Origin: Paramesorhizobium endophyticum
GTDB taxonomy: Bacteria > Pseudomonadota > Alphaproteobacteria > Rhizobiales > Rhizobiaceae
Length of the DNA stretch: 64,000 nucleotides
Assembly (NCBI RefSeq): GCF_014640615.1
Contig: NZ_BMHH01000016.1
Coordinates: 1 to 64,000 of the forward strand
Direction: 5' to 3'
Shown: positions 20,236 to 63,555 of the stretch, one piece after another
Position numbering within the stretch: the first letter of the stretch is position 1
How the letters are laid out: each line of letters starts with the position of its first letter
Position numbers and translations under genes: made by a program
Notes under the pieces: model-generated
Told to the model about the DNA's origin: nothing
Seen by the model: the letters and a program-made list of their open reading frames with translations, nothing else
Database searches by the model: none

Positions 20236-20311
20236 TGGCTGGACCTGAACTTGTTGTTTTTACGCTGAACGCTGGGAGCGGTGTGCCTTCTGCTCCGCCG
20301 GAGGTCGGCTC

Positions 20312-20465
20312 GCGCCCTCCCTCCACCTTGCGGGGAGGGTGGCCCGAAGGGTCGGGTGGGGGTGGCGACGTTTACGCCATGGTTTCCAACAAAAGCGCAA
20401 ACGTCACCACCCCCATTCGCCCGCTCCGCGGGCACCTTCCCCGCAAGGGGGAAGGAAAGTGCGAG
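20312..20465. repeat. palindromic repeat family B (copy B1) between rhaS and rhaT
   Basis: Two related but different half-elements face each other. One carries CTTGCGGGGAGGG, CCCGAAGGGTCGGG and GTGGGGGTGGCGACG; the other carries GTCACCACCCCCATTC, GCCCGCTCCGCGGGC and CTTCCCCGCAAGGGGGAAGG. The GGGGGTGG / CCACCCCC parts pair across a short spacer and each half also forms its own hairpins. This fills the 239 bases between the binding-protein gene and the ATPase gene. Confidence 0.9.
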
Positions 20466-20474
20466 CCTGTCCGA

Positions 20475-21470
20475 TCAAAACACCTTCGAAAACTCGTCAA
20501 TATTCGAGGCATTGTACACGAACGGATCAGCCATTGCCGCTTCGCCATTCTCGCCGATCTTGATCTTTCCCATGCGGCCTGCATTGACTTCGCTTCCCGG
20601 CTTGCCGTCGGCGTCGCCCTTGACGAGGCGGTAGGCGATCTGGGTGGCGGAGTAGCCGAGGTCGATCGGGTTCCAGATGGCGAATTCCTTCGTCGCACCG
20701 GACTTGATCGCGCCAGCCATTTCGGAGGGAAGACCGAGGCCGGTGACATAGACCTGGCCGATCTTGCCGGCATCCTTGACCGCCTGCGAGGCGGCGAGCA
20801 CGCCCACCGTGGTCGGCGCGACGATGACCTTGACGTTCGGCTGTGAGGTAAGCAAGCCCTGCGCTTCGCGGTAGCTCTTGTCGGCCAGGTCGTCGCCATA
20901 AACGGTCGTGACGAGGTTGAGGCCGGGATATTTCGAGAGTTGCTTCTTCATCTCGTCAATCCAGATGTTCTGGTTGGTCGAGGTGGTGGTGGCTGACAGA
21001 ATGGCGAAGTCGCCCTTGCCGTCGGGCAGATGATTGGCGGCAAGCTTCAGGCACATATTGCCGATCAACTCGTTGGACGAGGGGTTCAGGTGCATGATGC
21101 GGCCGGCGGGCGCGACGCCGGAATCCCACGAAATGACCTTGATGCCGCGCTGCGCCGCCTTCTTCAAAGCGGGTACGACCGCGTCGGGATCGTTGGCGGA
21201 GATGGCGATGGCGTCGACGCCCTGCGCGATCAGCGAATTGATGACTTCGATCTGGCCTTCCGCCGTCGTGGTGGTCGGGCCGGTGTAGATGATCTCCACA
21301 TCGCCCAGTTCCTTCGCCGCTTCCTGTGCGCCCTTGTTGGCCGCCTCGAAGAAGCCGTTGCCCAGCGATTTGACGACGAGCGCGATCTTGACCGGATCGG
21401 CATGGGCCTGGCTGGCAATCATGGACACGGCGACCGCCAGCCCTAGCGCCAGTTTCTTCAATAGTTTCAT
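20475..21470 (-). CDS. rhaS: rhamnose ABC transporter substrate-binding protein RhaS
   Basis: Periplasmic sugar-binding protein of the RbsB type, 331 residues. A signal peptide (MKLLKKLALGLAVAVSMIAS, cleavage near QAHA) is followed by KIALVVKSLGNGFFEAANKG, GVDAIAISANDPDAVVPALK and KVISWDSGVAPAGRIMHLNP, typical of class I periplasmic binding proteins. The ATG has GGGAGG seven bases upstream. It is the first gene of the uptake operon; a large repeat follows it, which may give the binding protein a longer-lived message than the downstream genes. Confidence 0.94.
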   Translation of the reverse strand: MKLLKKLALGLAVAVSMIASQAHADPVKIALVVKSLGNGFFEAANKGAQEAAKELGDVEIIYTGPTTTTAEGQIEVINSLIAQGVDAIAISANDPDAVVPALKKAAQRGIKVISWDSGVAPAGRIMHLNPSSNELIGNMCLKLAANHLPDGKGDFAILSATTTSTNQNIWIDEMKKQLSKYPGLNLVTTVYGDDLADKSYREAQGLLTSQPNVKVIVAPTTVGVLAASQAVKDAGKIGQVYVTGLGLPSEMAGAIKSGATKEFAIWNPIDLGYSATQIAYRLVKGDADGKPGSEVNAGRMGKIKIGENGEAAMADPFVYNASNIDEFSKVF

Positions 21471-21523
21471 GTGTTGATCCTCCCTTGGTTACTCTCCACG
21501 CCTCCCCGTTGCCCATTTTGGTC

Positions 21524-21586
21524 GCATGATCTTGTCCGAAAAGTCTGCAACTTTTTGCTGCGCTGACCTTCGGTTCGGGATCATGC
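21524..21586. repeat. palindromic repeat family F (copy F1), rhaR 3' end
   Basis: Outer arms GCATGATC (21524-21531) and GATCATGC (21579-21586) are perfect complements; between them lies CTTGTCCGAAAAGTCTGCAA followed by CTTTTTG. A shorter version of the same unit occurs at 36253-36296. It sits between rhaR and rhaS on the minus strand and may terminate the rhaR transcript. Confidence 0.75.
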
Positions 21587-22398
21587 TAGGCTACGGAAGA
21601 GGAATCCTCCTTCTTCGCCGCCGTGGCGGTCTGCGCCACGATCAGCTGAATACCTGCATCCTCCACCATGCGCCGCGCGGCATCCGACACCCCGTCGTCG
21701 GTGATGACAGTCGTCACCCGCGCAAGCTCGCACAGGATCAGGCTCGAGCGGCGGGTGAACTTGGTCGAATCCACCATCAGCACCAGTTCGTCCGCCTGGT
21801 TGATCAGCTTCTGCTCGCTCTGGATGATGAGCGCATCGGATTCCATCACGCCCAGCGGGCCGATGCCCTGCGACCCCATGAACATGCGGCGCGCATAGAA
21901 ATTGCGCGTCACGTCATTGTCGAAGGGGGAGAGGATCAGGCTCTGCTCGCGATAGATCGCGCCGCCGGGCACGATGACCGTGCTCTTCGAATGCTTGACC
22001 AGATGCTCCGCGATGGCGAAGGAATTGGTCAGCACCTGCAGGCGCCGCGCCGCCAGATAATGCACCATCTGGAAGGTCGTCGTGCCGCCATTGATGATGA
22101 CGGCGTCGCCTTCCTCGCACAGCGCCACGGCCTCGCGGGCGATGGCGCGCTTCTTGTCGATGTTCTCGGATTCCGACACGCGGAAAGGACGCCCGGCGAG
22201 GTTGGCAAGCTGCGGCGGATGCACAGCCTCCGCGCCGCCACGCACCCGGCGAAGGCGGCCTTGCACATGCAAGCTGGCAATGTCACGGCGGATCGTTGCT
22301 TCCGATGCCTCGGTCAGCTCGACAATATCCTGAATGGTTACGACCGGCTTTTCCTGGACTGCGCTCAGGATAATGCGGTGGCGTTCGCGCTCGTGCAT
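21586..22398 (-). CDS. rhaR: DeoR-family transcriptional regulator RhaR
   Basis: Predicted repressor of the rhamnose genes, 270 residues. The N-terminal DeoR winged helix-turn-helix is visible (ERHRIILSAVQEKPVVTIQD, then TEASEATIRRDIASLHVQGRLRRVRGGAEA), followed by the DeoRC sensor domain with INGGTTTFQMVHYLA and TVIVPGGAIYREQSL. DeoR-type repressors usually sense a phosphorylated sugar; rhamnulose or its phosphate is the likely ligand (inference). The gene is divergent from rhaD and the intervening 171 bases contain inverted repeats suited to its operator. Confidence 0.93.
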   Translation of the reverse strand: MHERERHRIILSAVQEKPVVTIQDIVELTEASEATIRRDIASLHVQGRLRRVRGGAEAVHPPQLANLAGRPFRVSESENIDKKRAIAREAVALCEEGDAVIINGGTTTFQMVHYLAARRLQVLTNSFAIAEHLVKHSKSTVIVPGGAIYREQSLILSPFDNDVTRNFYARRMFMGSQGIGPLGVMESDALIIQSEQKLINQADELVLMVDSTKFTRRSSLILCELARVTTVITDDGVSDAARRMVEDAGIQLIVAQTATAAKKEDSSSVA

Positions 22399-22451
22399 GG
22401 TTCCTCCCTCGGTTTAGGTATCCGCAGTTCATGCGCGTTTGTCAATCATGT

Positions 22452-22501
22452 TCGATCATGAATTTTCATATGTGCGCTGCAACATGAGCGTTCATGATCG
22501 A
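22452..22501. promoter_or_regulatory. inverted-repeat operator candidate in the rhaR-rhaD divergent region
   Basis: TCGATCATGAA at 22452-22462 and TTCATGATCGA at 22491-22501 are perfect 11-base inverted complements, 28 bases apart, roughly in the middle of the divergent region. DeoR proteins typically bind such spaced repeats. Binding by RhaR is inferred. Confidence 0.6.
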
Positions 22502-22507
22502 TTTCGA

Positions 22508-22555
22508 TTGACAGTGAAAGTTCGCTTGCGCATATCTCGGTGCAATTAATTGCAC
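22508..22555 (+). promoter_or_regulatory. rhaD promoter candidate with 16-bp palindrome at the start site
   Basis: TTGACA at 22508-22513 is followed after 17 bases by CATATC at 22531-22536. The perfect palindrome GTGCAATTAATTGCAC (22540-22555) overlaps the predicted transcription start and ends just before the GGGAGG SD of rhaD. Its position suits an operator or an early-transcript hairpin. Confidence 0.55.
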
Positions 22556-22569
22556 TTGGGAGGATGAAA

Positions 22570-24660: not shown

Positions 24661-24676
24661 GGATTTAACGCTTAAT

Positions 24677-24860: not shown

Positions 24861-24903
24861 CGATACGGTCAAATAAATATCGCTCTATGGAGGGAGGAGC
24901 ATC

Positions 24904-26196: not shown

Positions 26197-26240
26197 TCTT
26201 TCTGCTGCGCAAACCGCCTAAGGGAACAGAGCGGGGAGCC

Positions 26241-29201: not shown

Positions 29202-29287
29202 GTGCGGCTCTTATCATGTGGCTGGACGGGCGGGAAAGCCCCTGATCGCTTGCGGTCCTAACTTGCCTCAATTATTGTTGATTCCGC

Positions 29288-29376
29288 TCTAACGGGGTGC
29301 CGGGAAACCGGCTGAGAGACCTTTTGACGGTCAACCCGCGGAACCTGATCCGGTTAACACCGGCGGAGGGATTAGA
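29288..29376 (+). ncRNA. TPP riboswitch (THI box) upstream of thiBPQ
   Basis: The conserved elements are in order: ACGGGGTGC at the 5' side, GGCTGAGAG at 29310-29318, then ACCCGCGGAACCTGATCCGG and TTAACACCGGCGGAGGGA ending near 29371. The aptamer binds thiamine pyrophosphate. It is followed by an 8-base segment complementary to the thiB SD, so control is most likely at translation initiation. Confidence 0.97.
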
Positions 29377-29380
29377 CGCT

Positions 29381-29426
29381 GCCTTTCCACGGCGCTCGAT
29401 CCTAGCCACAACGAGAAAGGAAAGGC
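29381..29426 (+). promoter_or_regulatory. SD-sequestering hairpin of the TPP riboswitch
   Basis: GCCTTTCC at 29381-29388 is exactly complementary to GGAAAGGC at 29419-29426, which contains the thiB SD just before the ATG at 29430. Formation of this stem would hide the ribosome binding site. Its link to aptamer state is inferred. Confidence 0.75.
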
Positions 29427-29429: not shown

Positions 29430-30434
29430 ATGAAATCCCTACGTTATCTCGCCCTCAGCGCCGCCATGTTGCTCGGCCTCGCTGCGCCCGCTGCGGCGAA
29501 GGATACGCTCACCATTTACACCTATGACAGCTTTGTCAGCGACTGGGGGCCTGGGCCGAAGGTGAAGGCCAGTTTCGAGAAGGAGTGCAACTGCACAGTC
29601 GAATGGGTCTCCGCCGCCGATGGCGTGGCGCTCCTCAATCGCCTGAAGCTGGAAGGCGCCGATAGCAAAGCCGATATCGTGCTCGGCCTCGACAACAATC
29701 TGACGGCCGAGGCGCGGGAAAGCGGCCTTTTCGCCCCGCATGGCATCGACACATCCGATATCCATGTGCCGGGCGGGTATGAGAACAATATGTTCGTGCC
29801 CTATGACTATGGCTATTTCGCCGTGGTCTACGACAGCAAAGCCCTGCCCAACCCACCGCAAAGCATGAAGGAACTGGTCGAAGGCGATCCCAAGCAGAAG
29901 ATCGTGATCGAGGACCCGCGCACTTCCACGCCGGGGCTCGGCTTGCTGCTCTGGGTCAAGGCCATCTATGGCGACAAGGCCGGTGACGCCTGGGCGAAGC
30001 TTGGGGGTCGCGTGCTGACGGTCACACCTGGCTGGTCGGAGGCCTATGGCCTGTTCACCAAGGGCGAAGCGCCTATGGTGCTTTCCTACACGACCTCGCC
30101 CGCCTATCACATCATCGTGGACAAGGAAGAGCGCTACAAGGCGGCTTCGTTCTCGGAAGGGCACTATCTCCAGGTCGAGCTTGCCGCGCAGACGAAGAAG
30201 GGCGCGAAGAACCCGCTTGCGGCGAAGTTTCTGCAATTCATGACCGGGCCGGGTTTTCAAGATGTGATCCCTGAAACCAACTGGATGTTTCCTGCCGGGA
30301 AAATGTCGAAGCCGCTCGATCCGGTGTTCGATACGCTGGTGAAGCCGGTGAAGACGCTGGAACTGCCCTCGGACGAGGTGGCGAAGAATCGGAAAGCGTG
30401 GATCGATGAATGGCTTGCGGCGATGAGCCGGTGA
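29430..30434 (+). CDS. thiB: thiamine/TPP ABC transporter substrate-binding protein ThiB
   Basis: Periplasmic binding protein, 334 residues, of the importer that takes up thiamine and its phosphates. The signal peptide [20 protein letters not shown] ends at AAAKD; the mature protein has [35 protein letters not shown] and [14 protein letters not shown], all typical of ThiB. Length is normal. It is first in thiBPQ, controlled by the TPP riboswitch. Palindromic element B2 lies between it and thiP. Confidence 0.96.
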
Positions 30435-30469
30435 TGATGGCAACGGTTTCGATGTCGGATACCGGCTCG

Positions 30470-30622
30470 CGCCCTCCTTCCCCCTTGCGGGGAAGGTGCC
30501 CGCGCAGCGGGCGGATGGGGGTGGTGACGTTTGCGTCGACGATGATGGCCGTCGCGCACGCGTCACCACCCCCACCCGACCCTTCGGGCCACCCTCCCCT
30601 CAAGGGGGAGGGAGGTGCGAGC
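30470..30622. repeat. palindromic repeat family B (copy B2) between thiB and thiP
   Basis: The left half has CCTTCCCCCTTGCGGGGAAGG, GCCCGCGCAGCGGGC and GGGGGTGGTGACG; the right half has CGTCACCACCCCCACCC, CCCTTCGGGCC and CCCTCCCCTCAAGGGGGAGGG. The two 13-base cores are perfect complements around a short spacer. It is located inside the thiBPQ operon. Confidence 0.92.
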
Positions 30623-30648: not shown

Positions 30649-32268
30649 ATGTTGCTGATATTCCCACGCCTTCCCGCCAAACCCCTCGCCGGCGTCCTCG
30701 CGCTCGCCTTCCTCACCCTGCTGGCCGGAGGGGCGCTGTTCTCGCTCGCCCTGGAAGCGTCCCGCGAAACCGGCAACACGCTTGCCGCTTTCAATCCTTA
30801 TCTCTGGCGGGTGGCGCGGTTCACTCTGTTGCAGGCGCTGCTTTCGACGGTCCTGTCCGTCGGGCTCGCCATTCCCGTTGCGCGCGCGCTTCATGCGCAC
30901 CAGCACTTTCCCGGACGGGCTTTTATCATCAGGCTTTTCGCGCTGCCGCTGGCGCTGCCTGCACTCGTCGCGGTGCTTGCCATTACCAGCATTTACGGCC
31001 GCGCCGGACTGATCGCCGAAGCGGCGCATTCTCTCGGCCTCGATGTCACCCCCGACATTTACGGCCTCACCGGTATTCTCCTCGCCCATGTCTTCTTCAA
31101 CCTGCCGCTCGCCGTGCGCCTCCTTCTTGCCGGGCTCGATTCCATTCCCGCCGATTACTGGAAACTCTCGGCGCAGCTCGGCATGGGCAATTGGGCGCGG
31201 TTTCGCCTGATCGAATGGCCGGCCATGATCCGCAATCTGCCCGGCATCATGGGGCTGATTTTCATGCTCTGCGTCACCTCCTTCACCATCGTGCTGACGC
31301 TGGGCGGTGGCCCGCGCGCGACGACGCTGGAGGTGGCGATCTATCAGGCGCTCCATTTCGATTTCGACATCGGCCAGGCGGTCGCCCTGACGCTCACCCA
31401 GCTTGCCCTCACCGTTGCCATCCTCTCCCTCTTTCGCCTGACCGGCAGACCCACGGAGGAAGGCTTTTCGCTGGCGGTTAGAGTCAGGCGCTACGAGCGG
31501 CCGACGGTGGCCGAGAAGGTGGCAGACATGGCGATGATCCTGTTTGCCTTCCTCTTCGTCGCCCTGCCCATCGCCGGTATGGTCGTCTCCGGCCTATCCG
31601 CCGATTTCGGCAGGCTCTTTACCGAATGGGCCGTCTGGCGGGCGATTCAGACCAGCTTCACCCTCGGCGCCGCTGCCGCATTCCTCTCCGTGCTCGTCTC
31701 CCTCGCCCTCGTCGTTGCGCGCCAGGCGGTGGCGAAGGAGGGCGGACGCTCTTTGTTCGAGCGCGCGCTCGATACCGGCGCGAGCCTCATTCTCGTCGTG
31801 CCGCCCATCGTCATCGGCGCGGGCTGGTTCATCCTGCTGCGCCATTTCGCCGACCCGTTCGATTTCGCCGCTCCCATGGTCATCACCGTCAACGCCGCCA
31901 TGGCGACGCCCTTTGCGGTGCGAATCCTGCGTCCGGTCTGGGACACGATGAGCACCCGGCACGACCGGCTTTGCGCACAGCTCGGCATCACCGGCTGGGC
32001 GCGGCTCAGGCTGATCGACTGGCCGGTGCTGCGCCGCCCCCTGGGCGTGGCCTTCGCCTTCGCCATGGCGCTGTCGCTCGGCGATCTCGGAACCATCGCC
32101 CTCTTCGGCAGCGACGCAGTCGAGACCTTGCCCTATCTCCTGTTGCAGCGCATGGGGAGCTACCGCACAGTGGACGCTGCGGGGCTGGCGCTGATTCTGG
32201 GTGCCCTGAGCCTCGGGCTGATGATGCTGGCCGACCGCGGCTCGGCGCGAAAAGAAGAAACGTCATGA
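30649..32268 (+). CDS. thiP: thiamine/TPP ABC transporter permease ThiP
   Basis: Fused double-permease of 539 residues with about twelve membrane segments. Each half has an EAA-type loop: [19 protein letters not shown] near 183 and [19 protein letters not shown] near 444, with [20 protein letters not shown] close to the C-terminus as in ThiP of other Proteobacteria. The ATG at 30649 gives the family start; upstream in-frame codons translate the repeat and are not expected to be coding. SD is weak, so translation may depend on upstream readthrough. The stop overlaps thiQ's start by four bases. Confidence 0.93.
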
Positions 32269-38224: not shown

Positions 38225-38366
38225 CGCAAAAGCCCAAGGGCCTGAACCAGCCCAAAGCAGAACGGCACCCGAGGGCGCATTGCGCTGTCGGGTGTGGACC
38301 TCCGGGATCTGTTTACACCAAATGGGTCCCGGTCGGCTGCTCGAGTCTTGGGCTCGTCGCGGAGTT
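38225..38366 (-). ncRNA. structured leader or small RNA candidate upstream of ffh
   Basis: On the minus strand the segment can close with AGCCCAA (38354-38348) pairing TTGGGCT (38255-38249). Inside it are a hairpin with CACCCGA / TCGGGTG arms (38266-38294) and one with CCGGGA / TCCCGG arms (38302-38332), plus a short GCAG/CTGC stem. A second TTGGGCT at 38237-38231, followed by TTTTGCGGGG, offers an alternative partner. It lacks the conserved GGAA-tetraloop motif of SRP RNA and I cannot match it to a named family. It may be a 5' leader or a separate sRNA. Confidence 0.5.
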
Positions 38367-42212: not shown

Positions 42213-43085
42213 TCACGCCTCCAGATTCTTGCCGATGAGGCGGATGAGGAAGATGGCGACGATATTGGCGAGCACCACCGCCACGATGCCGCCCGCGGAC
42301 GCCCCGCCCACATCGAACTGCAACAGCGCCTGCGCATAGACGAGATAGGTGATGTTGGTGCTCGCATTGCCCGGCCCGCCATTGGTGGTGACGAGGATTT
42401 CGGCGAAGACACTGAGCAGGAAGATCGTCTCGATCAGCACCACCACCGTCATGGCGCGGGAGAGATGCGGCAGCACGATATAGATGAAGCGCGAGACCGG
42501 CCCTGCCCCATCCATCTCCGCAGCCTCTTTCTGCTCCTCATCGAGCGATTGCAGCGCGGTCAAGAGGATGAGCGTGGCGAAGGGCAGCCATTGCCAGGCG
42601 ACAATCATCGTCACCGAAAATAGCGGCCAATTGTTGAGCCAGTCCACCGGCTGCAAGCCCAGCGCCCGCGCGATCTCAGCGAAGATGCCATAGACCGGGT
42701 GCATCAGCATGTTCTTCCAGACGAGCGCCGAAACGGTCGGCATGACGAAGAACGGCGCGATGACAAGCAGCCGCACGATGCCCTGCCCGAAGAATGGCTG
42801 GTCGAGCAGCAGCGCCAGCAGCGTCCCGCCGACGATGGTGATAAGCAGGACTCCGCCCACCAGCAGCAGCGTGTTGATAAGCGCCGTGCCGAAAGCCGGA
42901 TCGGTGAGGAAATAGGTATAATTGAGCGTCCCCGCCCATTCCTCCATCCCCGGCATCAGCAGATTATACCGCAGGAACGAGAAATAGAGTGTCATGACCA
43001 GCGGCACGATCATCCACAGGAAGAGCAGGACGACGGCCGGTGTCATCATCAGGCGCGCGGCGGACCGCGTTTGCAGCGTTGCCAT
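42213..43085 (-). CDS. polyol/sugar ABC transporter permease (MalF-like)
   Basis: Second permease, 290 residues with six helices. SAARLMMTPAVVLLFLWMIV starts the first helix, LLVIAPFFVMPTVSALVWKN lies near 125, and the EAA loop EAAEMDGAGPVSRFIYIVLP near 200. The start ATG (MATLQTRS) gives the normal family N-terminus; the frame is open upstream into repeat C2 but is not conserved-looking. SD is weak. A 250-base gap filled by repeat C2 separates it from the binding-protein gene. Confidence 0.92.
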   Translation of the reverse strand: MATLQTRSAARLMMTPAVVLLFLWMIVPLVMTLYFSFLRYNLLMPGMEEWAGTLNYTYFLTDPAFGTALINTLLLVGGVLLITIVGGTLLALLLDQPFFGQGIVRLLVIAPFFVMPTVSALVWKNMLMHPVYGIFAEIARALGLQPVDWLNNWPLFSVTMIVAWQWLPFATLILLTALQSLDEEQKEAAEMDGAGPVSRFIYIVLPHLSRAMTVVVLIETIFLLSVFAEILVTTNGGPGNASTNITYLVYAQALLQFDVGGASAGGIVAVVLANIVAIFLIRLIGKNLEA

Positions 43086-43140
43086 GGGTGTGGTCCCATT
43101 CTTTTCAGCAAAACAAAACGGTGGACTGACGGGCTTCCAC

Positions 43141-43326
43141 CAAGCGCCCTCGTCCTTCGAGGCTCGCTCTCCACTGACCATTCGCCAAGCTCACGGTCAG
43201 TGGAGAGCGAGCACCTCAGGATGAGGGCTACTGGGGCGCTGCGGCCCTTCACCCTCATGGTGAGGTGTGAATGGAGCGCAGCGGAATAAGCCTCGAACCA
43301 CGAGGGTGAAGGGCCGCAGCGCTCCA
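43141..43326. repeat. palindromic repeat family C (copy C2) between binding protein and permease
   Basis: GCTCTCCACTGACC and GGTCAGTGGAGAGC near 43163-43207 form a 14-bp stem. It is flanked by CCTTCGAGGCTCG / ACCTCAGGATGAGGGC blocks and then GGTGAGGTGTGAATGGAGCG with CCTCGAACCACGAGGGTGAA, all shared with C1. The terminal GGGCCGCAGCGCTCC also pairs with GGGGCGCTGCGGCCC upstream of it. Confidence 0.85.
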
Positions 43327-43333
43327 GCTTCAG

Positions 43334-44650
43334 CTACTTAATATACCCGCCCTTCGTCATCTCGCGCTCGCTCAGCTGCTGCGAATTCTTCAGCGCCTGG
43401 TCGACCGTGACCTGCCCCGCGAGCGCCGCCGAGAATTGCTGGCCGACCGCCGTGCCAAGTCCCTGGAACTCGGGAATGGCGACGAACTGCACGCCAACAT
43501 AAGGCACCGGCTTCACCGTCGGCTTGGTCGGATCGGCGGCGTTGATCGATTCGAGCGTCATCTTGGCAAAGGGCGCGACCTTCAAATAGTCCGCGTTCCC
43601 ATAGAGCGAGGTCCGGGTGCCGGGAGGCACGTTGAGCCAGCCATCCTTGGACGCGACGAGGTTGAGATAATCCTTGCTCGTCGCCCAGTTGATGAATTTC
43701 TCCGCCGCTTCGGTTTTCTGCGAACCCGACGGGATCGCCAGCGTCCACGCCCACAGCCAGTTGCCCCGCTTGCCCAGGCCCTTGTCCGGGGCGAGCGCGA
43801 AGGCAACCTTGTCCGCGACTTTCGATTCCTTGGGGTCGCTCACGAAGGACGCCGCCACGGTCGCGTCGATCCACATGGCGCATTTGCCGGTCTGGAACAG
43901 CGCCAGATTCTCATTAAAGCCGTTGGAGGAGGCTCCCGGAGGGCCGGCATCCTTCATCAGATTGACGTAATAATCGAGCGTCGCCTTCCATTCCGGCTGG
44001 TCGAATTGAGGCTTCCAGTTTTCATCGAACCAGCGCGCGCCGAAGGAATTGGACATGGCGGTGAGCAGCGCCATGTTCTCGCCCCAGCCCGCCTTGCCGC
44101 GCAAGCAGATGCCGTACTGCTCTTTGCTCTTGTCGGTCAGCTTGCGGGCGGCTTCGCCCACGAAATCCCAGGTCGGCGCATCGGGCATCTTCAGCCCCGC
44201 CGCATCGAACAGATCCTTGCGATACATGACGAACGAGCTCTCGCCATAGAACGGCGCGGCATAGAGCTTGCCATCCTGCGTCAGGCCGCCGCGAATGTGG
44301 GGCAGGATATCGTCGGCGTCGTAATTTTTGTCCGCCACCAGCTTGTCGAGCGGCAGAAGCCAGCCCTGCTTGGCCCAAATCGGCACTTCGTAGGTGCCGA
44401 TGGTCATGATGTCGTACTGGCCGCCCTTGGTGGCGATGTCGGTGGTGACGCGCTGGCGCAGCACATTCTCCTCCAGCACCACCCATTGCAGGTCGATGCC
44501 GGGGTTCTTCGCCTTGAAGTCGTCGCTGAGCTTCTGCATGCGCACCATGTCGCCATTGTTGACCGTGGCGATCGTCAGCGTCTCGGCCTTGGCGAAGCCT
44601 GCCATCGCAATAACCGAACAGGCTCCCAGCATCAGGGATTTCAATCTCAT
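43334..44650 (-). CDS. polyol/sugar ABC transporter substrate-binding protein
   Basis: Periplasmic binding protein of 438 residues, MalE/SmoE-like. The signal peptide MRLKSLMLGACSVIAMAGFA is cleaved near AKAE; ETLTIATVNNGDMVRMQKLS, GGQYDIMTIGTYEVPIWAKQ and GWLLPLDKLVADKNYDADDI match the sorbitol/mannitol-type solute-binding group. GGGAGG five bases before the ATG is a strong SD. It is the first gene of the importer operon, and a large hairpin element follows it. A polyol substrate is inferred from the family and the downstream dehydrogenase. Confidence 0.9.
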   Translation of the reverse strand: MRLKSLMLGACSVIAMAGFAKAETLTIATVNNGDMVRMQKLSDDFKAKNPGIDLQWVVLEENVLRQRVTTDIATKGGQYDIMTIGTYEVPIWAKQGWLLPLDKLVADKNYDADDILPHIRGGLTQDGKLYAAPFYGESSFVMYRKDLFDAAGLKMPDAPTWDFVGEAARKLTDKSKEQYGICLRGKAGWGENMALLTAMSNSFGARWFDENWKPQFDQPEWKATLDYYVNLMKDAGPPGASSNGFNENLALFQTGKCAMWIDATVAASFVSDPKESKVADKVAFALAPDKGLGKRGNWLWAWTLAIPSGSQKTEAAEKFINWATSKDYLNLVASKDGWLNVPPGTRTSLYGNADYLKVAPFAKMTLESINAADPTKPTVKPVPYVGVQFVAIPEFQGLGTAVGQQFSAALAGQVTVDQALKNSQQLSEREMTKGGYIK

Positions 44651-46926: not shown

Positions 46927-49083
46927 ATGGTCACATCGCGCCGGAAGGCCACGCTCCGCATTCTCCTGAGTGGCGCAGCCGCGCTTCCCGTTTTCCTCTC
47001 ATCGGCCGCTCAGGCGCAGGAAAATGGCGGGACCATCGAACTCAAACAGATCACCGTCGAAACCGGCAATGCCAAGGCGGGGAGCGCCACCGGCCCGGTC
47101 AAGGGCTTCGTCCCCGAGAATACCGCTACCGGCTCCAAGACCGACACCCCCATCGAGCAGATCCCGCAATCCGTCTCCGTCGTCGGGCGCGAGGAGATGG
47201 ACGATATTGGCGCGCAGAAGCCTGACGAGGCGCTGCGCTACACCGCCGGCGTCTTCGCGCAGCCCTTCGGCCCGGATTTCGACACCAACTGGCTCTACAT
47301 TCGCGGCTTCGACGCCACCCAGACCGGCACCTATCTCGATGGGCTGCAGAATTTCAGCTACGGGTTTGGCGGCTTCCTGATCGACAGCTTCGGCCTCGAG
47401 CGCATCGAGGTGCTGAAAGGCCCCGCCTCGGCTCTTTATGGCGGCGGCAATCCGGGCGGCATCGTCAACTATGTCAGCAAGCGCCCAACCGGCGAGCGCA
47501 TCCGCTATCTCGAAGCAGGCATCAACTCCTTCGGCAATGGCTATACGGGCTTCGACATCGGCGATAAGGCGTCCGACGTGGTCAATTACCGCGTCAACGG
47601 CGTCATCGGCGGCGGCGACGGCTATACCGACTTCGAGGAGAATTTCCGCGGAGTCATCTCGCCCAGCATCTCCTGGAGCCCGGACGAGGCGACCAAGCTG
47701 ACTGTGCTCGCCAACTACACCCATCTCGACGGCACCCACAATGGCGGCGCCTTCCTGCCCTATTTCGGCACGGTGGTGGACGCTCCCTTCGGCAAGATCT
47801 CCCGCAAGCGCAACTTCACCGAGCCGTCCATCGATAGCTATGACCGCGAGCAGGCCTCGATCGGCTACGAGCTGGAGCATACGTTCGACAATGATTGGAC
47901 CGTGCGCCAGAACCTGCGCTATGGGTTCTCGCATGTGAAGGAGCATAGCCTCTACGCCTATGGCTACGGCTGGGCCGAGCAGCCATCGGGAACCGATTAC
48001 GATCTCTCGCGCATCAATTTCCGCCACGATACAACGGTTAACACCTTCCTGGTGGACAACCAGCTGCAAGGCAAGGTGACGACGGGCGCTATCGAGCACA
48101 CGCTGCTCTTCGGCGTCGAGTACAAATATTTCGACATCGACCAGATGCAGCAGACCGGCGGGGCCACTCCGATCAATCCCGTCCATCCGGTCTATGGCCT
48201 TCCGCAAGGGCCGATGTGGGATCCCTATATCGACCAGAACCTGAAGCGTAATCAGGTTGGCATTTACGCGCAGGATCAACTCCGCTTCGGCGATGGCTGG
48301 ATCATGACGCTCAACGGTCGCTATGACTATGTATCGGACAAATCGGAGGGGCTGCCCTCCTACCGCGATCACGAAGGCAAGGCGAGCGGCCGCTTCGGCA
48401 TCGGTTATGAGTTCGAGAACGGCCTGACCCCCTACGCCAGCGTCGCCAGCTTCTTCAACCCGGTCATCGAGGCGCTCGGCAACGGCGCCCAAGCCCAACC
48501 CGAAACGGGGCAGCAATATGAGGTTGGTGTCAAATACCGGCCTCAGGCATTCGACGGCCTCGTCACCGCCTCGTTCTTTGACCTGACCAAGCAGAATGTC
48601 GTGACGGGCCCGAACACCAACAGGGAGCAGATCGGCGAGGTCAACTCGCGCGGTTTCGAACTCGAAGCGCAGGCGAACATCACCGATGCATGGCGCGTGA
48701 CGGCAGCGTTCACCACTTACAAGCTCGAGGTGACGGAAGACGCCAACGCAGCCCTCATCGGCAACCAGCCTTACCTCGTTCCGGAGACGCAGGCTTCCGT
48801 CTTCGCGCAGTATACCGTCCTCGACGGCGCGCTCGAAGGGCTGCAACTCGGCGCGGGCGTTCGCTATATCGGCTCGTCCTATGCCGATGCGGAGAACAAG
48901 TACAAGGTGCCGGATGTGGCGCTGGTCGATCTGAAGCTCGGCTACGAAAAGGACAATTGGGGCGTCGACCTCAATGTCACCAACCTCTTCGACAAGAACT
49001 ATGTGGCCGGCTGCCAGACGACCCTCTCCTGCGGGTATGGCGAAGGCCGCAAGGCGCTGCTCAAGGCGCATGTGAAGTGGTGA
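46927..49083 (+). CDS. fhuA: TonB-dependent hydroxamate-siderophore receptor, FhuA-like
   Basis: Outer-membrane receptor, 718 residues. Signal peptide 1 to about 33 (ending AAQAQE); plug domain with KTDTPIEQIPQSVSVVGREE, EALRYTAGVFAQPFGPDFDT, RGFDATQTGTYLDGLQ and ERIEVLKGPASALYGGGNPG, then the 22-strand barrel, ending in the canonical aromatic residue (LKAHVKW). Similarity by eye is to FhuA/FoxA receptors for ferrichrome or ferrioxamine. AAGGGG nine bases before the ATG is the SD. It is followed by fhuD and fhuB homologues and preceded by an AraC regulator. Confidence 0.9.
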   Translation: MVTSRRKATLRILLSGAAALPVFLSSAAQAQENGGTIELKQITVETGNAKAGSATGPVKGFVPENTATGSKTDTPIEQIPQSVSVVGREEMDDIGAQKPDEALRYTAGVFAQPFGPDFDTNWLYIRGFDATQTGTYLDGLQNFSYGFGGFLIDSFGLERIEVLKGPASALYGGGNPGGIVNYVSKRPTGERIRYLEAGINSFGNGYTGFDIGDKASDVVNYRVNGVIGGGDGYTDFEENFRGVISPSISWSPDEATKLTVLANYTHLDGTHNGGAFLPYFGTVVDAPFGKISRKRNFTEPSIDSYDREQASIGYELEHTFDNDWTVRQNLRYGFSHVKEHSLYAYGYGWAEQPSGTDYDLSRINFRHDTTVNTFLVDNQLQGKVTTGAIEHTLLFGVEYKYFDIDQMQQTGGATPINPVHPVYGLPQGPMWDPYIDQNLKRNQVGIYAQDQLRFGDGWIMTLNGRYDYVSDKSEGLPSYRDHEGKASGRFGIGYEFENGLTPYASVASFFNPVIEALGNGAQAQPETGQQYEVGVKYRPQAFDGLVTASFFDLTKQNVVTGPNTNREQIGEVNSRGFELEAQANITDAWRVTAAFTTYKLEVTEDANAALIGNQPYLVPETQASVFAQYTVLDGALEGLQLGAGVRYIGSSYADAENKYKVPDVALVDLKLGYEKDNWGVDLNVTNLFDKNYVAGCQTTLSCGYGEGRKALLKAHVKW

Positions 49084-49140
49084 GGATGGCGCTGTCCGTG
49101 TAAAATGGAAATGCTGGATGACGCTGCCCTCTGGCCCGCT

Positions 49141-49297
49141 TGGCTCCATCCTTCCCCCTTGCGGGGAAGGTGCCCGCATAGCGGGCGGATGGGGGTGGTG
49201 ACGCTTGTGCCACGGTCTTCAGCAGAGGCGCGTACGTCACCACCCCCACCCGACCCTTCGGGCCACCCTCCCCGCAAGGGGGAGGGAAGGAGCCAAG
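49141..49297. repeat. palindromic repeat family B (copy B3) between fhuA and fhuD
   Basis: Left half CCTTCCCCCTTGCGGGGAAGG, GCCCGCATAGCGGGC and GGGGGTGGTGACG; right half CGTCACCACCCCCACCCGAC, CCCTTCGGGCC and CCCTCCCCGCAAGGGGGAGGG. The end of the right half supplies the purine-rich AAGGAG that is the best SD for fhuD. Confidence 0.92.
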
Positions 49298-49314: not shown

Positions 49315-50169
49315 ATGCTCGCCCTCGCTGCGGGCATATTTGCATCCTCCGGCAGCCTTCGCGCCGCGCCTCTCCCCCGCATCGCGGCCATCGACTGGGC
49401 GATGTTCGAGACAGCGCTTGCCATCGGCGCGGTACCCGTCGCCGCGACCGAGCTCATCCAGTTCCGCCAAATTGCCATCGAACCGAACGTGCCGGGAAGC
49501 GTCGTGGATATCGGCCTGCGCGGCGCGCCCAATATGGAGCTGCTGCGCATCATCGCGCCGGACCTGATCCTGAGTTCCAATTTCTACGAATACCGCCGCC
49601 CCGCCTTCGAGCGCATCGCGCCCGTCTTTTCCCGCACGATCTACGAGACCGGCACGCCACCCTTCGACCCCGCGCGAGACGCCATGCTCGCCCTAGGGCA
49701 AAAGCTCGGGTTGGAAAACGCCGCGCAAGACTACATCGCCGCAACGGAAGCCGACATCGCCACCTTGCGCGACCGCGTCAAAACCCGCGGCCGTCCGGTT
49801 TTCCTTATCAGCATCGGCGATAGCAGGCATTTCCGCGCTTTCGGCGACGATAGCATGTTCGGCGACGTGCTCTCCCGCCTGGGGCTTGCCAATGCCTGGA
49901 AAGGCACGACCAGCTATTCCGCCACCGCACCTGTTGGCATCGAGGCGCTGGCGGATGTTCCCGAAGCCGATATCGTGGTGATCGGCCCGGTCCCGCCAGA
50001 GGCACGCAACATCCTGCCCGCCAGCCCGATATGGAATGCGCTTCCGGCTGTCAGCGAAGGCCGCGTGGCGATGCTCGACCCCATCGATCATTTCGGCGCC
50101 CTCCCCGCCGCCCGGCGATTCGTTCGGCTGCTAGGGGAGGCTGGACCATTCGTGCAGGCAAGCCAGTGA
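49315..50169 (+). CDS. fhuD: iron-siderophore ABC transporter substrate-binding protein FhuD
   Basis: Periplasmic binding protein for ferric hydroxamates. From the first ATG it has 284 residues: MLALAAGIFASSGSLRAAPL, then AIDWAMFETALAIGAVPVAA, GSVVDIGLRGAPNMELLRII and PDLILSSNFYEYRRPAFERI, typical FhuD. The five codons before the ATG encode ITRRT, completing a twin-arginine signal (TRRTMLAL), so the true start is probably upstream; the AAGGAG at 49287-49292 points to the ATC at 49300 (see findings). It follows repeat B3 after fhuA; fhuB follows after repeat A5. Confidence 0.88.
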   Translation: MLALAAGIFASSGSLRAAPLPRIAAIDWAMFETALAIGAVPVAATELIQFRQIAIEPNVPGSVVDIGLRGAPNMELLRIIAPDLILSSNFYEYRRPAFERIAPVFSRTIYETGTPPFDPARDAMLALGQKLGLENAAQDYIAATEADIATLRDRVKTRGRPVFLISIGDSRHFRAFGDDSMFGDVLSRLGLANAWKGTTSYSATAPVGIEALADVPEADIVVIGPVPPEARNILPASPIWNALPAVSEGRVAMLDPIDHFGALPAARRFVRLLGEAGPFVQASQ

Positions 50170-50179
50170 AAGCGTACTT

Positions 50180-50250
50180 TTCGATGGAAGCGCCAGACAC
50201 CCCCCTCTTCCCTCCTGAGCTTGTCGAAGGGCGGGCATCTCCCCTTCCAC
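50180..50250. repeat. palindromic repeat family A variant (inverted match to A3)
   Basis: GATGGAAGCGCCAGACACCC, CCTGAGCTTGTCGAAGGGC and GGGCATCTCCCC are the reverse complement of the element at 16312-16384. Confidence 0.8.
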
Positions 50251-50332
50251 TCTTGTCGTTCGAAGCCCTCGGATTAAATCCGAGGGTCACCGGAGGATGC
50301 ACGGCTAGAGCATTTTGTTTTTATAAGGAAGC

Positions 50333-50527
50333 GTCGGCGGGACAGCGCCCCCCTCTGCCCTCCCGGTCATCTCCCCCGCAAGGGGGGAGATCACACCTTC
50401 ATCGCTGCATTCGCCAATCGCCAACGTTGCAAGGCAAACGCTGTGGGTCGCGCCAGCCAATCTCCCCCCTCGCGGGGGAGATGTCCGGCAGGACAGAGGG
50501 GGGCCCGGTTCCGCCAGCATTTCCAGA
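50333..50527. repeat. palindromic repeat family A (copy A5) between fhuD and fhuB
   Basis: Left half GGCGGGACAGCGCCCCCCTC and CTCCCCCGCAAGGGGGGAG; right half CTCCCCCCTCGCGGGGGAG, TCCGGCAGGACAGAGGGGGG and TCCGCCAGCATTTCCAG. With the preceding variant it accounts for most of the 370 bases between fhuD and fhuB; I see no gene there. Confidence 0.9.
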
Positions 50528-50539
50528 TGAGATGTTCCA

Positions 50540-52519
50540 ATGAGCAACATCACACGCGCTCATCGCCCCATCCTCCTCTGGTCGCTCCTCGCACTCGCCG
50601 CCGCCGTGCTCTGCGCCATCATCATCGCCCAGCACCTTACCCCCGGCGCGGCAACCCCAGCCCTCCAGCGCATCATCCTGTTCCAGGCCACCCTCCCCCG
50701 CGCTACAATGGCTATTCTCTGCGGCGCGGCGCTTGGCCTTTCCGGCCTCCTTCTCCAACGCGTGCTGCGCAATCCGCTGGCGGAGCCTTCGACGCTCGGC
50801 ATATCGGCGGGGGCGCAACTGGCCATGGCCGCCGCGGCCATCTATGCCCCCACGCTCCTGGAAGCAGGGCGCGAGGGTGTGGCGCTGGCGGGCGGGCTGG
50901 CGGCGGTTGCCTTCGTGCTGGCGCTCAACTGGCGGCGCGATCTGGAGCCGGTTTCGGTCGTGCTGGCGGGCATGATGATATCTCTGACGGCCACCACCGC
51001 CAGCGCTGCGCTCATTCTCGCCAATGGCGAATATATGTTCTCGCTCTTCATCTGGGGCAGCGGCACGCTCAACCAGCAGGGCTGGGAACCCACGATGGCC
51101 ATCGCGCTACGGCTGGCATTGGTGACGGGCGGCGCGCTGCTGCTCCTGCGCCCGCTCACCATTCTCGGCCTCGACGAACGCAACGCCCGCAGCCTCGGCG
51201 TCGCGCTCTATGCCACCCGCCTGATGGTGATTGCGCTTGCCGTCTGGCTGGCGGCGAGCGTGACGGCGGAAGTCGGCATCATCGGCTTCATCGGCCTTGC
51301 CGCACCTGCCCTTGCGACTTTAAGCGGCGCGCGCACCCCGCGCCAGAAGCTCATCGCCGCACCGCTCATCGGCGCAATCCTGCTTCTCCTCGCCGATGGG
51401 CTGGTGCAATTATTTGCCGGCTCCGGCGGCGAGCGCATCCCCACCGGCGCGGCGACGGCGCTGCTCGGCGGCCCGCTGCTCCTCTGGCTGCTGCCGCGCC
51501 TGCGCATGCTCGAATGGCCATCGCTCAACGCGAAACCACCCGCCACCCTCCGCGCGTCTCGCCCGCTCCTTCTGCTCTTCCTCCTCGTCGTCCTCACGCT
51601 CGCCATCGGGGCGCTCTCCCTCGTTCTGGGACGCGGGCCGCATGGCTGGAACCTCGCCCACGGCGCTATTCTCCATGACCTCGCCGCCTTCCGCGCGCCC
51701 CGCATCGCCATCGCCGCCGCCGCGGGCGCGATGCTTGCCGCGGCAGGCACGATCATGCAGCGGCTGACCGGCAATCCGCTCGCGAGCCCGGAGATTCTCG
51801 GCATCGGCACCGGCGCGGGCGTCGGCCTCGCCGCTGTCCTCTATTTCAGCGCCATGCCCGGCCAGGGCCTGCAGCTCATCGGCGCAAGCGCCGGGGCGCT
51901 CGTCACCCTCCTCGTCATGCTCGCGCTCGCCGCGCGGGGCGGCTTTGGGCCGGAGCGCCTGCTGCTCGCAGGCATCGGCATGGGCGCGCTGTGCAGCGCG
52001 GTGCTGACCGCCATCATCGCCACGGGCAACCGCCAGGCCTTCCGGCTATTGGAATGGCTAAGCGGCACCATCAGCGAAGCCTCCGCCGGGGAAGCGCGCA
52101 TCGCCTGCCTCGCCGCCATCCTCCTCATCGCGCCGCTGTTCCTCACCCCGCGCTGGCTGGATATTCTCCCGCTGGGCAAGACCACCGCTCGGTCGCTCGG
52201 CCTGCCCTTGGCGGGAATCCGCCTGTTGCTCGTCCTCCTCTGCGCCGGGCTCACCGCCTGCGCCTCGCTGCTCGTCGGGCCGCTGAGCTTCATCGGCCTC
52301 ATTGCCCCGCATCTGGCCCGGCTCATCGGCCTTCACCGGCCCCTGCCCGCGCTCACGGGAGCGATTTTCATCGGCAGCGGCCTCATGATTCTCTCCGACT
52401 GGCTGTCTCGCATGGTGGCGTTTCCCTACCAGCTTCCGCTCGGCCTGTTCGCGTCGCTGATCGGCGGAGCCTACTTGATCTTTATGCTAGGCCGGGGCCA
52501 TAGCCGCGAAACCACCTGA
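50540..52519 (+). CDS. fhuB: Fe(3+)-hydroxamate ABC transporter permease FhuB
   Basis: Double-length FecCD permease, 659 residues with about twenty membrane segments. Each half shows the family pattern: LPRATMAILCGAALGLSGLL with QRVLRNPLAEPSTLGISAGA, and APRIAIAAAAGAMLAAAGTI with QRLTGNPLASPEILGIGTGA; GIIGFIGLAAPALATLSG and GPLSFIGLIAPHLARLIG end the halves at the ATPase-contact loops. The fused form is FhuB specifically. No ATPase gene (FhuC) lies beside it; the next gene is an unrelated regulator. SD is poor. Confidence 0.94.
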   Translation: MSNITRAHRPILLWSLLALAAAVLCAIIIAQHLTPGAATPALQRIILFQATLPRATMAILCGAALGLSGLLLQRVLRNPLAEPSTLGISAGAQLAMAAAAIYAPTLLEAGREGVALAGGLAAVAFVLALNWRRDLEPVSVVLAGMMISLTATTASAALILANGEYMFSLFIWGSGTLNQQGWEPTMAIALRLALVTGGALLLLRPLTILGLDERNARSLGVALYATRLMVIALAVWLAASVTAEVGIIGFIGLAAPALATLSGARTPRQKLIAAPLIGAILLLLADGLVQLFAGSGGERIPTGAATALLGGPLLLWLLPRLRMLEWPSLNAKPPATLRASRPLLLLFLLVVLTLAIGALSLVLGRGPHGWNLAHGAILHDLAAFRAPRIAIAAAAGAMLAAAGTIMQRLTGNPLASPEILGIGTGAGVGLAAVLYFSAMPGQGLQLIGASAGALVTLLVMLALAARGGFGPERLLLAGIGMGALCSAVLTAIIATGNRQAFRLLEWLSGTISEASAGEARIACLAAILLIAPLFLTPRWLDILPLGKTTARSLGLPLAGIRLLLVLLCAGLTACASLLVGPLSFIGLIAPHLARLIGLHRPLPALTGAIFIGSGLMILSDWLSRMVAFPYQLPLGLFASLIGGAYLIFMLGRGHSRETT

Positions 52520-56920: not shown

Positions 56921-56947
56921 CTACAGTTGAGCCGCTCTTGAATCCGG

Positions 56948-57793: not shown

Positions 57794-57817
57794 GATTGTC
57801 TCCTTGTATAAATGATA

Positions 57818-59068: not shown

Positions 59069-59078
59069 TGATCGCCTT

Positions 59079-60489: not shown

Positions 60490-60490
60490 G

Positions 60491-61588: not shown

Positions 61589-61593
61589 TGAAA

Positions 61594-62463
61594 TTACCCT
61601 TTTACCGCGCCGAAGGTGAGGCCGGAGACCAGATGTTTCTGGATGATGAAGGTGAGGATCAGCGCCGGCACGATCATGACGACGGCAAGCGCGCACATGC
61701 CGCGCCAGTCGAGGGTGAACTCGGCGGTGTAGTCGAGGAGCCCGACCGGCAGCGTCTTGGAATTGACCGAGCGGGTGAGTTGCGAGGCAAGCGCATATTC
61801 GTTCCATGAGGTCAGGAACGCGAAGATGCCCGCCGACGCGATGCCGGGGCCGGCAAGTGGAAACTCCACCTGCCAGAACGCCTGCCAGCGGGTGCAGCCG
61901 TCGATCTGCGCGGCCTCGGCGAGATCCCGCGGCACCTGCCGGAAGAATCCGTCGATGAGCCAGATGGTGAAGGGCACGTTGAGCGCCACATAGGTCAGGA
62001 TCAGGCCGAAATGCGTGTCGATGATGCCAAGCCGCGCATAGATCATGAACAGCGGCAGCGACAGCGCGATGCCCGGCACGGCGCGCGTGAGCATGAAGCC
62101 AAGGAAGATCGCCGACTTGCCCTTGAAGCGGAAGCGCGCGAAGGCATAGCCTCCCGCCATGCCGATGCCGAGCGCGATGACCGTGGAGGTGATCGAGACG
62201 ATGATGGAATTGCGGAAATAATCCCACACCGGCACGCCGCCTCCGCCGATGCCGCCGAACATGGCGCGATAGGCGTCGAGCGACAAATCGGTCGGTATCC
62301 AGACCGGCGGCTTGGCCATGATCTCCACTGTCGGGCGCATGGAATTGAGGACGATCCAGACGCCCGGCAGGCAGATGACCGTCATCGCCAGGAAGAGGCC
62401 TATGAAATGCGCCAGTTTGAGCAGCCGGCGCTTGGCGCGATGGGTGCTGTTGAGGTCCGCCAT
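61594..62463 (-). CDS. sugar ABC transporter permease (MalG-like)
   Basis: A 289-residue permease with six helices. [20 protein letters not shown] is the first segment; [20 protein letters not shown] near 105; the EAA loop is [20 protein letters not shown] near 190; the C-terminal [13 protein letters not shown] is characteristic of the MalG group. The ATG at 62463 lies two bases before the stop region of the preceding permease gene. Confidence 0.93.
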
Positions 62464-62464
62464 T

Positions 62465-63358
62465 TTACCACTCCGCTCCGATCTGCTGGCGCGCAGCGGC
62501 CAGTTTCCTGAAGAAATAGACGGTGAAGAGGATCGACAGCAGGATCGAGACATAGGCCATGGCGTTTGCCACGCCCATGCGCGCATCGCTGTAGGCCGTC
62601 CGCCCGATCAGCGTCCAGAGCAGCTCCGTGCGCCCTGCCGGCCCGCCATCGGTCATGATCTTGACGATGTCATAGGCCCGTGCCACGTCGAGCGAGCGGA
62701 TCGTCATGGCAATGAAGGCAAAGGGCATGACGAATGGCCAAGTGACGTAACGGAAGGTCTGCCACGGCGTACACCCATCCACCCGCGCCGCCTCGACCGG
62801 CTCCTGTGGCATGGCGAGCAGCCCGGCGAGGATCAGGATCGCGAAGACGGAGGTGGAGGACCAGACCTCCGCGACGATGATGGAGAATAGCGCAAGATTG
62901 CCATCAATAAGCCAGGGAATCGCCTGATTGCTGAGGCCTAGCGACTGCAAAACATTGTTAACGAGCCCGATATTGTCGTTAAACATGAATTTAAACTGGA
63001 AACCGACGAGCACGGGCGAGAACATCATCGGAAACATCATCAGCGTGCGCAGAACGCGCTGCCCATGCGTCGCCTTGTTGACGAGCATGGCAAGGCCCAG
63101 CCCAAGGAACATCTCGCTATTCAGCGCGATGGTAAGCAGCAGGATGGTCCGCCCGAACGCCACCCAGAAATCCCAGTTGGAGAGCACATTGACGTAATTG
63201 CGCAAGCCGATGAACACCCACAACGTATCCGGCCGCGTCAGCCGGAACGGCGTGAAACTGGAATAGAAGGAAAAGACGAGCGGCAGCACGATCACCGCGA
63301 CAAGCACGATGATCGCGGGCAGGAGAAGCAGGGTTGGGGCGGGAAGTTTCAGTCTCAT
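62465..63358 (-). CDS. sugar ABC transporter permease (MalF-like)
   Basis: A 297-residue permease with six predicted helices. LLPAIIVLVAVIVLPLVFSF near 12 begins the first; LRTLMMFPMMFSPVLVGFQF near 105; the EAA loop EAARVDGCTPWQTFRYVTWP near 195. It is the first permease after the binding-protein gene; a 197-base gap with repeat B4 lies between. Confidence 0.93.
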   Translation of the reverse strand: MRLKLPAPTLLLLPAIIVLVAVIVLPLVFSFYSSFTPFRLTRPDTLWVFIGLRNYVNVLSNWDFWVAFGRTILLLTIALNSEMFLGLGLAMLVNKATHGQRVLRTLMMFPMMFSPVLVGFQFKFMFNDNIGLVNNVLQSLGLSNQAIPWLIDGNLALFSIIVAEVWSSTSVFAILILAGLLAMPQEPVEAARVDGCTPWQTFRYVTWPFVMPFAFIAMTIRSLDVARAYDIVKIMTDGGPAGRTELLWTLIGRTAYSDARMGVANAMAYVSILLSILFTVYFFRKLAAARQQIGAEW

Positions 63359-63400
63359 TTACAAGCCCTGCTCCTGATCGGCATGCGGCATGAATGTTAG

Positions 63401-63553
63401 CGCCCCCTTCCCCCTTGCGGGGAAGGTGCCCCGCGTCCGCGGGCGGATGGGGGTGGTGACGTTTGTGCTTTTGCTGGAGACAATGGCGTAAACGTCACCA
63501 CCCCCACCCGACCCTTCGGGCCACCCTCCCCGCAAGGGGGAGGGAAAGCGGAG
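63401..63553. repeat. palindromic repeat family B (copy B4) between binding protein and permease
   Basis: Left half CTTCCCCCTTGCGGGGAAGG, CCCGCGTCCGCGGGCGGAT and GGGGGTGGTGACGTTTG; right half AAACGTCACCACCCCCACCC, CCCTTCGGGCC and CCCTCCCCGCAAGGGGGAGGG. Relative to transcription it has the opposite orientation to copies B1-B3. Confidence 0.92.
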
Positions 63554-63555
63554 CC

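Follow-up and report, generated by a model that had tools for sequence, protein, structure and literature searches.

Palindromic repeats of several unrelated families occupy many of the gaps that separate binding-protein genes from the transporter genes downstream of them in ATP-binding cassette (ABC) importer operons of Paramesorhizobium endophyticum. The starting point is a 64-kb stretch of DNA (hereafter the window) from the 4.93-Mb genome of this bacterium (83 contigs; G000). Of the 54 genes called in the window, not all were annotated. Five binding-protein-to-transporter junctions were found there, and all five carry an element of the families that we term A, B and C. Outside the window, in a count of junctions whose residual gap measures 20-200 nt, these families fill 22/59 junctions (37%) in G000 and 16/28 (57%) in a second species of the same genus (G050). 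The excess of repeats at binding-protein junctions is real, one-directional, and reproducible, and it is not universal. The arrangement within the window is not due to chance.

The original prediction, made from the sequence of the window, placed family B elements between rhaS and a sugar-importer ATPase gene, between thiB and thiP, between fhuA and fhuD, and between a binding-protein gene and its permease gene near the end of the window, and a family C element in one further binding-protein junction. All five elements are present (Table 1). It is also correct that each B copy joins two different halves. A copy is ~150 bp long and consists of two unlike half-types inverted around the complementary core GGGGGTGGTGACG/CGTCACCACCCCC of 13 bp, in which no more than one position is mismatched in 4/4 window copies. 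The binding-protein junctions of the window are indeed filled, as had been stated, except that there are five rather than four; the fhuD-fhuB junction, which holds a family A element, had been missed. The fhuA-fhuD gap lies between a receptor gene and a binding-protein gene, and hence falls outside the binding-protein-to-permease class. The label 'fucose-type' that had been given to the last binding protein was not borne out, as this 437-aa protein has no Pfam match at 1e-3 and a weak match to NCBIfam GanS alone. It is probably a binding protein, because its gene precedes two BPD_transp_1 permease genes.

The RNAs of the five junctions with family B or C elements (four B, one C) are predicted to fold far more stably than dinucleotide shuffles of the same sequences, with z-scores from -8.4 to -11.7 and 0/200 shuffles as stable as the natural sequence in each case. 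The consensus of 14 family B copies yields a structure of -86.5 kcal/mol with 56 base pairs. In 8 of these pairs, one or more copies differ at both positions. As most pairs show little variation, the covariation term comes out slightly unfavourable. When up to two mismatches are allowed, the core arm has 142 + 127 matches in the genome, compared to 14 + 14 for the reversed control, and we therefore estimate that the genome carries about 120 family B copies. In some B copies, one half contains an additional inner palindrome of ~40-60 nt (G000 C3:5058-5266 and C1:372093-372229), possibly a trace of growth by accretion.

For the counts in G000, we sampled sequence reaching 3 kb on each side of 75 family B copies and 3.5 kb on each side of 103 permease clusters, the latter taken from the listed PF00528 and PF02653 matches (150/151 PF00528 matches used), together with 20 random control stretches of 15 kb each. 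The rates for G000 rest on the gaps near permeases and in the control stretches. Stretches of G050 were picked by PF00528 alone. Since an element adds to the length of the gap that it occupies, the main test compares residual lengths, obtained by subtracting the element from the gap. Gaps with a residual length outside the 20-200 nt band were dropped, and the window was excluded.

By this measure, an A or B element is present in 19/56 binding-protein-to-transporter junctions of G000 and in 17/281 other tandem gaps (p=9e-8). Each family contributes, with B alone in 12/50 junctions against 5/270 other tandem gaps and A alone in 8/47 against 13/278 (p=0.005). The excess is evident against either part of the control set, namely the near-permease gaps (9/185; p=8e-8) and the random control stretches (8/96; p=1e-4). 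G050 serves as a replicate, and there the elements fill 16/28 junctions and 7/85 other tandem gaps (p=3e-7). The original prediction had proposed a count against gaps of matched length and had named copies scattered according to gap length as the refuting outcome; the counts reject that outcome both in G000 outside the window and in G050. Its further wording, that an element lies in every binding-protein junction, describes the window and does not extend to the 59 and 28 junctions counted outside it. The ATPase pattern missed rhaS and another sugar importer (C1:350161), and both were counted under 'other', which lowers the reported excess. A first, simpler test of the distance from 75 B copies to permease domains gave a weak signal within 2 kb (10/75, with 8.3 expected) and a suggestive one within 500 bases (7, with 3.6 expected); it mixes all flanks and is superseded by the junction counts.

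The excess is specific to one kind of gap and to one gene order. Other transporter-linked gaps carry an A or B element in 5/77 cases (G000) and 4/41 cases (G050), and gaps that lead from a secreted gene to a non-transporter gene in 1/37 and 1/8 cases. Where the transporter gene comes first and the secreted gene second, A-C elements occupy 1/21 gaps in G000 and 0/7 in G050, compared to the 22/59 and 16/28 of the reverse order (pooled p=5e-5). Pfam counts for the genes upstream of 23 occupied junctions fit 22 binding proteins and one glucokinase, and those upstream of 42 unoccupied junctions, judged as a set, include one FAD oxidoreductase. When the two genes that do not encode binding proteins are removed, the excess in G000 still has p=2e-7. 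The elements begin a median of 14.5 nt past the stop codon of the binding-protein gene and end a median of 36.5 nt before the next start codon, indicating that the downstream ribosome site usually lies outside the element. In 34/46 junctions the element is closer to the stop codon than to the next start.

Different repeats can occupy the same junction in different species. Many junctions of at least 110 nt that lack A-C match numerous other places (5/14 in G000 and 8/10 in G050), and four such palindromes were named families D-G. Among 29 reciprocal-best binding-protein pairs between the two genomes, scored for families A-G, 6 junctions carry the same family, 9 carry families that differ, 7 have an element in just one of the species, and 7 in neither; this tally, like all counts that use D-G, is descriptive, since these families were discovered inside junctions and are biased to them. 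When A-C alone are considered, 11 orthologous junctions are filled in both species, 5 with the same family and 6 with different ones. For example, the thiB-thiP junction holds B in G000 and A in G050, Paramesorhizobium deserti, Mesorhizobium sp. RMAD-H1, and Aliihoeflea aestuarii. ThiB of the window has its nearest named match in P. deserti (83%), among records from which very near ones may be missing. The P. deserti junction (L031, a gap of 309 nt) also shows nested repeats, with another long palindrome splitting the family A element.

Junctions without repeats likewise tend to contain a hairpin. Among gaps of 40-150 nt, repeat-free binding-protein junctions have stronger hairpins than other tandem gaps in G000 (median z -2.15 vs -0.43; n 28 vs 165, p=0.0001), in G050 (-2.8 vs -0.5; n 6 vs 32, p=0.02), and in the pSymB replicon of Sinorhizobium meliloti (-2.1 vs -0.35; n 11 vs 97, p=0.0002). 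This test at first dropped gaps with A-C, and the repeat run dropped every gap that matched more than two places, at the cost of 3/9 junctions in G050. For pSymB, the repeat check covers the first 600 kb, and A-C were not found in the 13 binding-protein junctions of that region. The strong hairpins in its 11 short junctions indicate that the feature is wider than the genus. In two orthologous pairs (C20:25237 and C1:160491), the stem of a unique hairpin directly behind the stop codon is conserved and its loop is not, as judged by eye. Family exchange and the hairpins of repeat-free junctions together indicate that what the junctions share is a strong palindrome downstream of the binding-protein gene rather than any particular family of repeats.

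Hairpins at the 3′ ends of transcripts hinder 3′-to-5′ exonucleases. Hairpins within an operon can also give its segments different lifetimes, for example in puf of Rhodobacter, according to excerpts of one account (PMC7509114). Our preferred explanation, which we hold to be probable, is that interchangeable palindromes have been recruited as RNA-decay barriers after binding-protein genes. The repeats would be kept, or would accumulate, between binding-protein and transporter genes for the sake of their very stable transcribed palindrome, so that selection rather than insertion preference would lie behind the enrichment. If folded in vivo, the palindrome RNA would block 3′-to-5′ decay arriving from a less stable permease message, and decay would stop at the element. 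The binding-protein segment would then outlive the permease segment and yield more binding protein than permease, a surplus from which the importer presumably gains. Such protection of the upstream transcript and bias toward binding protein had also been put forward in the original prediction. Any strong palindrome should suffice, and unrelated families could therefore replace each other at one junction across species, with repeat-less junctions relying on a unique hairpin instead. A broader proposition, which we see as evenly balanced, is that selection favours palindromes of any kind in the gap that follows a binding-protein gene, such that at least three, and perhaps seven, unrelated families were recruited independently and swapped between related species while a strong hairpin was retained. 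Mobile repeats would thereby provide many operons of one class with interchangeable barriers to RNA decay. Species pairs that carry B, A, or no element in one operon are natural replicates for the effect of a repeat on the transcript ratio.

The palindromic repeats of families A, B and C, and with less certainty those of D-G, are non-coding and dispersed, and they settle for the most part at the 3′ end of a transcribed gene. The 92 family B copies examined lie in 54 tandem, 31 convergent, and 2 divergent gaps, with 2 further copies falling within a called gene and 3 at the end of a contig. Relative to gaps of at least 100 nt in the same sequence (360 tandem, 86 convergent, 173 divergent), B is over-represented in convergent gaps, nearly missing from divergent gaps, and as frequent as expected in tandem gaps (p=1e-11). 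An upstream stop codon lies within 15 nt of the start of 38/53 full-length tandem B copies, where 12 are expected.

This general distribution is what lends some credit to a neutral account, which we nonetheless judge unlikely. Copies might insert beside stop codons or into existing hairpins, and junctions that are roomy, promoter-free, and rich in hairpins would accumulate them without benefit. Several observations favour this account or weigh against recruitment as decay barriers. The closeness to an upstream stop codon is general to tandem B copies, as it is seen in 36/38 of those outside binding-protein junctions, and about a third of all copies (31/92) sit in convergent gaps, a plain neutral site, with only 2 in divergent ones. 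B copies show no bias of orientation relative to transcription (6 forward, 9 reverse). Those in junctions have lower profile scores than other tandem copies (median 136 vs 151 bits, p=0.017) and fold slightly worse (p=0.05), and they thus give no indication that the element is under additional purifying selection. One relative (L031) has a palindrome inside another. In 11/14 rhizobial relatives the thiB-thiP gap is at most 43 nt long and free of elements, and the A copies of P. deserti and Mesorhizobium sp. RMAD-H1 at this site, judging from flanks that can be aligned by eye, probably stem from a single insertion. Furthermore, convergent gaps are often filled, in G050 not distinguishably less often than binding-protein junctions (6/11 vs 20/30, p=0.49). 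Some features of the counts call for similar caution. Genes were called by our own codon-usage script, and a hydrophobicity rule served to recognize most binding proteins. We chose the 20-200 nt band with the data already in view, with counts made without it pointing in the same direction (23/77 in G000 and 19/36 in G050). The random control stretches hold 2 B copies where ~7 are expected, and the control rate for B may thus be low by chance.

An insertion preference for stop codons or hairpins could yield part of the pattern. However, the excess survives matching on gap length minus element length, and binding-protein junctions in G000 are filled more often than convergent gaps, both when the window and D-G are included (29/65 vs 10/55, p=0.003) and for A-C without the window (22/59 vs 6/51). 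The neutral account also leaves the hairpins of repeat-free junctions unexplained, although a targeting of hairpins by the repeats could reverse this argument.

The decay-barrier explanation shares its expected outcome with attenuation, in which the structures would stop some transcription after the binding-protein gene, by an intrinsic or Rho-dependent route, and would lower permease expression with stability unchanged. The same protein ratio is expected, and a few junctions do have a hairpin followed by a T-run, such as G050 L239 and G000 C1:160491. In G050, terminator-like sites occur in 3/10 repeat-free and 4/24 repeat-bearing junctions against 7/60 other repeat-free gaps, small numbers that lean toward attenuation and away from a decay barrier. 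In contrast, no T-run closes the B copies that were aligned, G000 shows no enrichment of terminator-like sites (3/32 and 4/33 junctions vs 28/303 other repeat-free gaps), and pSymB has 0/12 vs 7/153. We hold attenuation to be improbable. A role at the level of DNA, for instance in binding a chromosome protein or gyrase or as a replication or repair signal, with the transporter association being secondary, would suit elements that are near-symmetric and unbiased in orientation, yet it is very improbable given that the near-absence of B from divergent gaps and the polarity at binding-protein genes indicate a transcribed function.

Table 1. Repeat elements and adjoining genes in the 64-kb window. 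The z-scores refer to the predicted fold of each junction.
Feature	Position	Strand	Remarks
Family B element	20309-20467	-	Between rhaS and sugar-importer ATPase gene; z -8.4
rhaS	20475-21470	-	NCBIfam TIGR02637 above cut-off
Sugar-importer ATPase gene	18712-20235	-	'rhaT' of the original prediction; RbsA/AraG-like, below cut-offs
Family B element	30465-30616	+	Between thiB and thiP; z -11.3
thiB	29430-30434	+	SBP_bac_1
thiP	30649-32268	+	TIGR01253 above cut-off
Family C element	43208-43314 (profile match)	-	Junction 43086-43333; fold pairs wider, ~43145-43328; z -11.7
Binding-protein gene	43334-44605	-	SBP_bac_1; upstream of family C element
Permease gene	42213-43085	-	Downstream of family C element
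Family B element	49140-49295	+	Between siderophore receptor gene and fhuD-like gene; z -10.1
Siderophore receptor gene	46927-49083	+	Protein family match above cut-off
fhuD-like gene	49315-50169	+	Family match below cut-off
Family A element	~50308-50530 (profile match 50328-50503)	+	fhuD-fhuB junction 50170-50539; z -6.9
fhuB	50540-52519	+	NF007866 above cut-off; FecCD
Family B element	63397-63550	-	Between probable binding-protein gene and UgpA-like permease gene; z -8.5
Probable binding-protein gene	Stop at 63556, extends beyond window	-	437-aa protein, complete in locus L173
UgpA-like permease gene	62465-63358	-	Downstream of family B element at 63397-63550
Partial family A copy	16295-16375		Between rhaM (16400-16717 -) and FGGY kinase gene (14938-16302 -)

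A second family C copy of the window lies at 14800-14942, in the convergent gap between genes at 13168-14748 (+) and 14938-16302 (-). An Rfam scan of the window detected two RNAs and no repeat element above the gathering threshold. The first is a thiamine pyrophosphate (TPP) riboswitch upstream of thiB (29283-29388 +, RF00059, 74.7 bits), and control of the thiB-thiP operon may therefore act at two points, its start and its first junction. The second is a signal recognition particle (SRP) RNA (ffh, RF01793) at 38258-38309 (-).

Among 121 genomes of the taxonomic family searched, with the best candidates scored, long family B matches (at least 89% identity) occur in G000 and G050 only, and 16 other genomes have matches that are nearly all to one half. 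One of the family genomes (G104) carries a diverged near-full-length copy (73%), and two plasmid records, one from Hyphomicrobiales and one from Shinella, carry further diverged near-full-length copies (71-75%). Family A matches 196 plasmid records, mostly from Sinorhizobium and Rhizobium.

The original prediction described the elements as REPIN-like. A REPIN is a doublet of repetitive extragenic palindromic (REP) sequences tied to a REP-associated tyrosine transposase (RAYT), as defined in excerpts of a previous report (PMC3116915). Family B resembles this class in structure, with inverted half-types around a 13-bp core and the whole element forming one fold. The class assignment is not upheld, since no RAYT was found in a search with Pfam PF01797, which a very divergent RAYT or one in a contig gap would escape. 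The lone Y1_Tnp gene that was recovered (G000 C7:54549-54905, L221; profile search, E up to 0.01) has one in-frame stop and no B copy in its 3.4-kb locus, and we read it as IS200-type.

GTAG and CGTC REP dimers offer a further parallel. The excerpted text on these elements describes several families with two unlike halves that lie mostly in tandem or convergent gaps near stop codons, CGTC REPs without a dedicated transposase, and a tetranucleotide tag that ends a short stem of 8-9 bp (CGTC) or 5-13 bp (GTAG) (PMC3733652). Like them, family B consists of intergenic palindromic dimers in tandem and convergent gaps beside stop codons, seemingly with no dedicated transposase, as for CGTC REPs. Each B half has CGTC at its inner end, in a comparison restricted to the tag. 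Family B differs in its length of ~150 bp and in having several hairpins per half; families E and G are, in our reading, closer to the CGTC format. Dispersed structured intergenic repeats are also described in rhizobia, including RIME, in the portion of that study available (PMC2573895). Family A shares this general character in an indirect comparison, and differs in having only 2 matches in a 600-kb portion of pSymB (S. meliloti 1021).

A functional counterpart exists in Clostridium, where part of a report on selective RNA processing and stabilisation operons describes unique stem-loops after chosen genes that set subunit ratios, including in ABC transporter operons, with RNA-Seq support (PMC8219983). 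The shared feature is a stem-loop after particular operon genes, ABC transporter genes among them; the difference is that those stem-loops are unique and backed by RNA-Seq, whereas ours are mobile repeats in Rhizobiales with predicted folds. In Rhizobium leguminosarum, a stem-loop after the binding-protein genes aapJ and braC is said to set the level of the binding protein relative to the rest of the importer. The placement is the same as here, and these are two unique cases, not repeats.

The comparison with malE-malF of Escherichia coli, drawn in the original prediction, is apt. REP sequences between these genes were reportedly described by Newbury et al. in 1987, and they have long been a lone textbook case of hairpins that give parts of one operon transcript different lifetimes. 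We measured a gap of 153 nt with a fold z of -7.6, which means that, as in the junctions studied here, a long stable palindrome lies between the binding-protein and permease genes, in that case of a maltose-type importer. We found no prior statement in the open-access literature of a genome-wide repeat excess in binding-protein junctions, which is no proof that none exists. The present arrangement bears on the old question of whether bacteria exploit such repeats or just tolerate them. In contrast to malE-malF, it involves unrelated sequence families that differ between two species at orthologous junctions, and it recurs, in the statistical sense, across an entire class of operons with dozens of importers.

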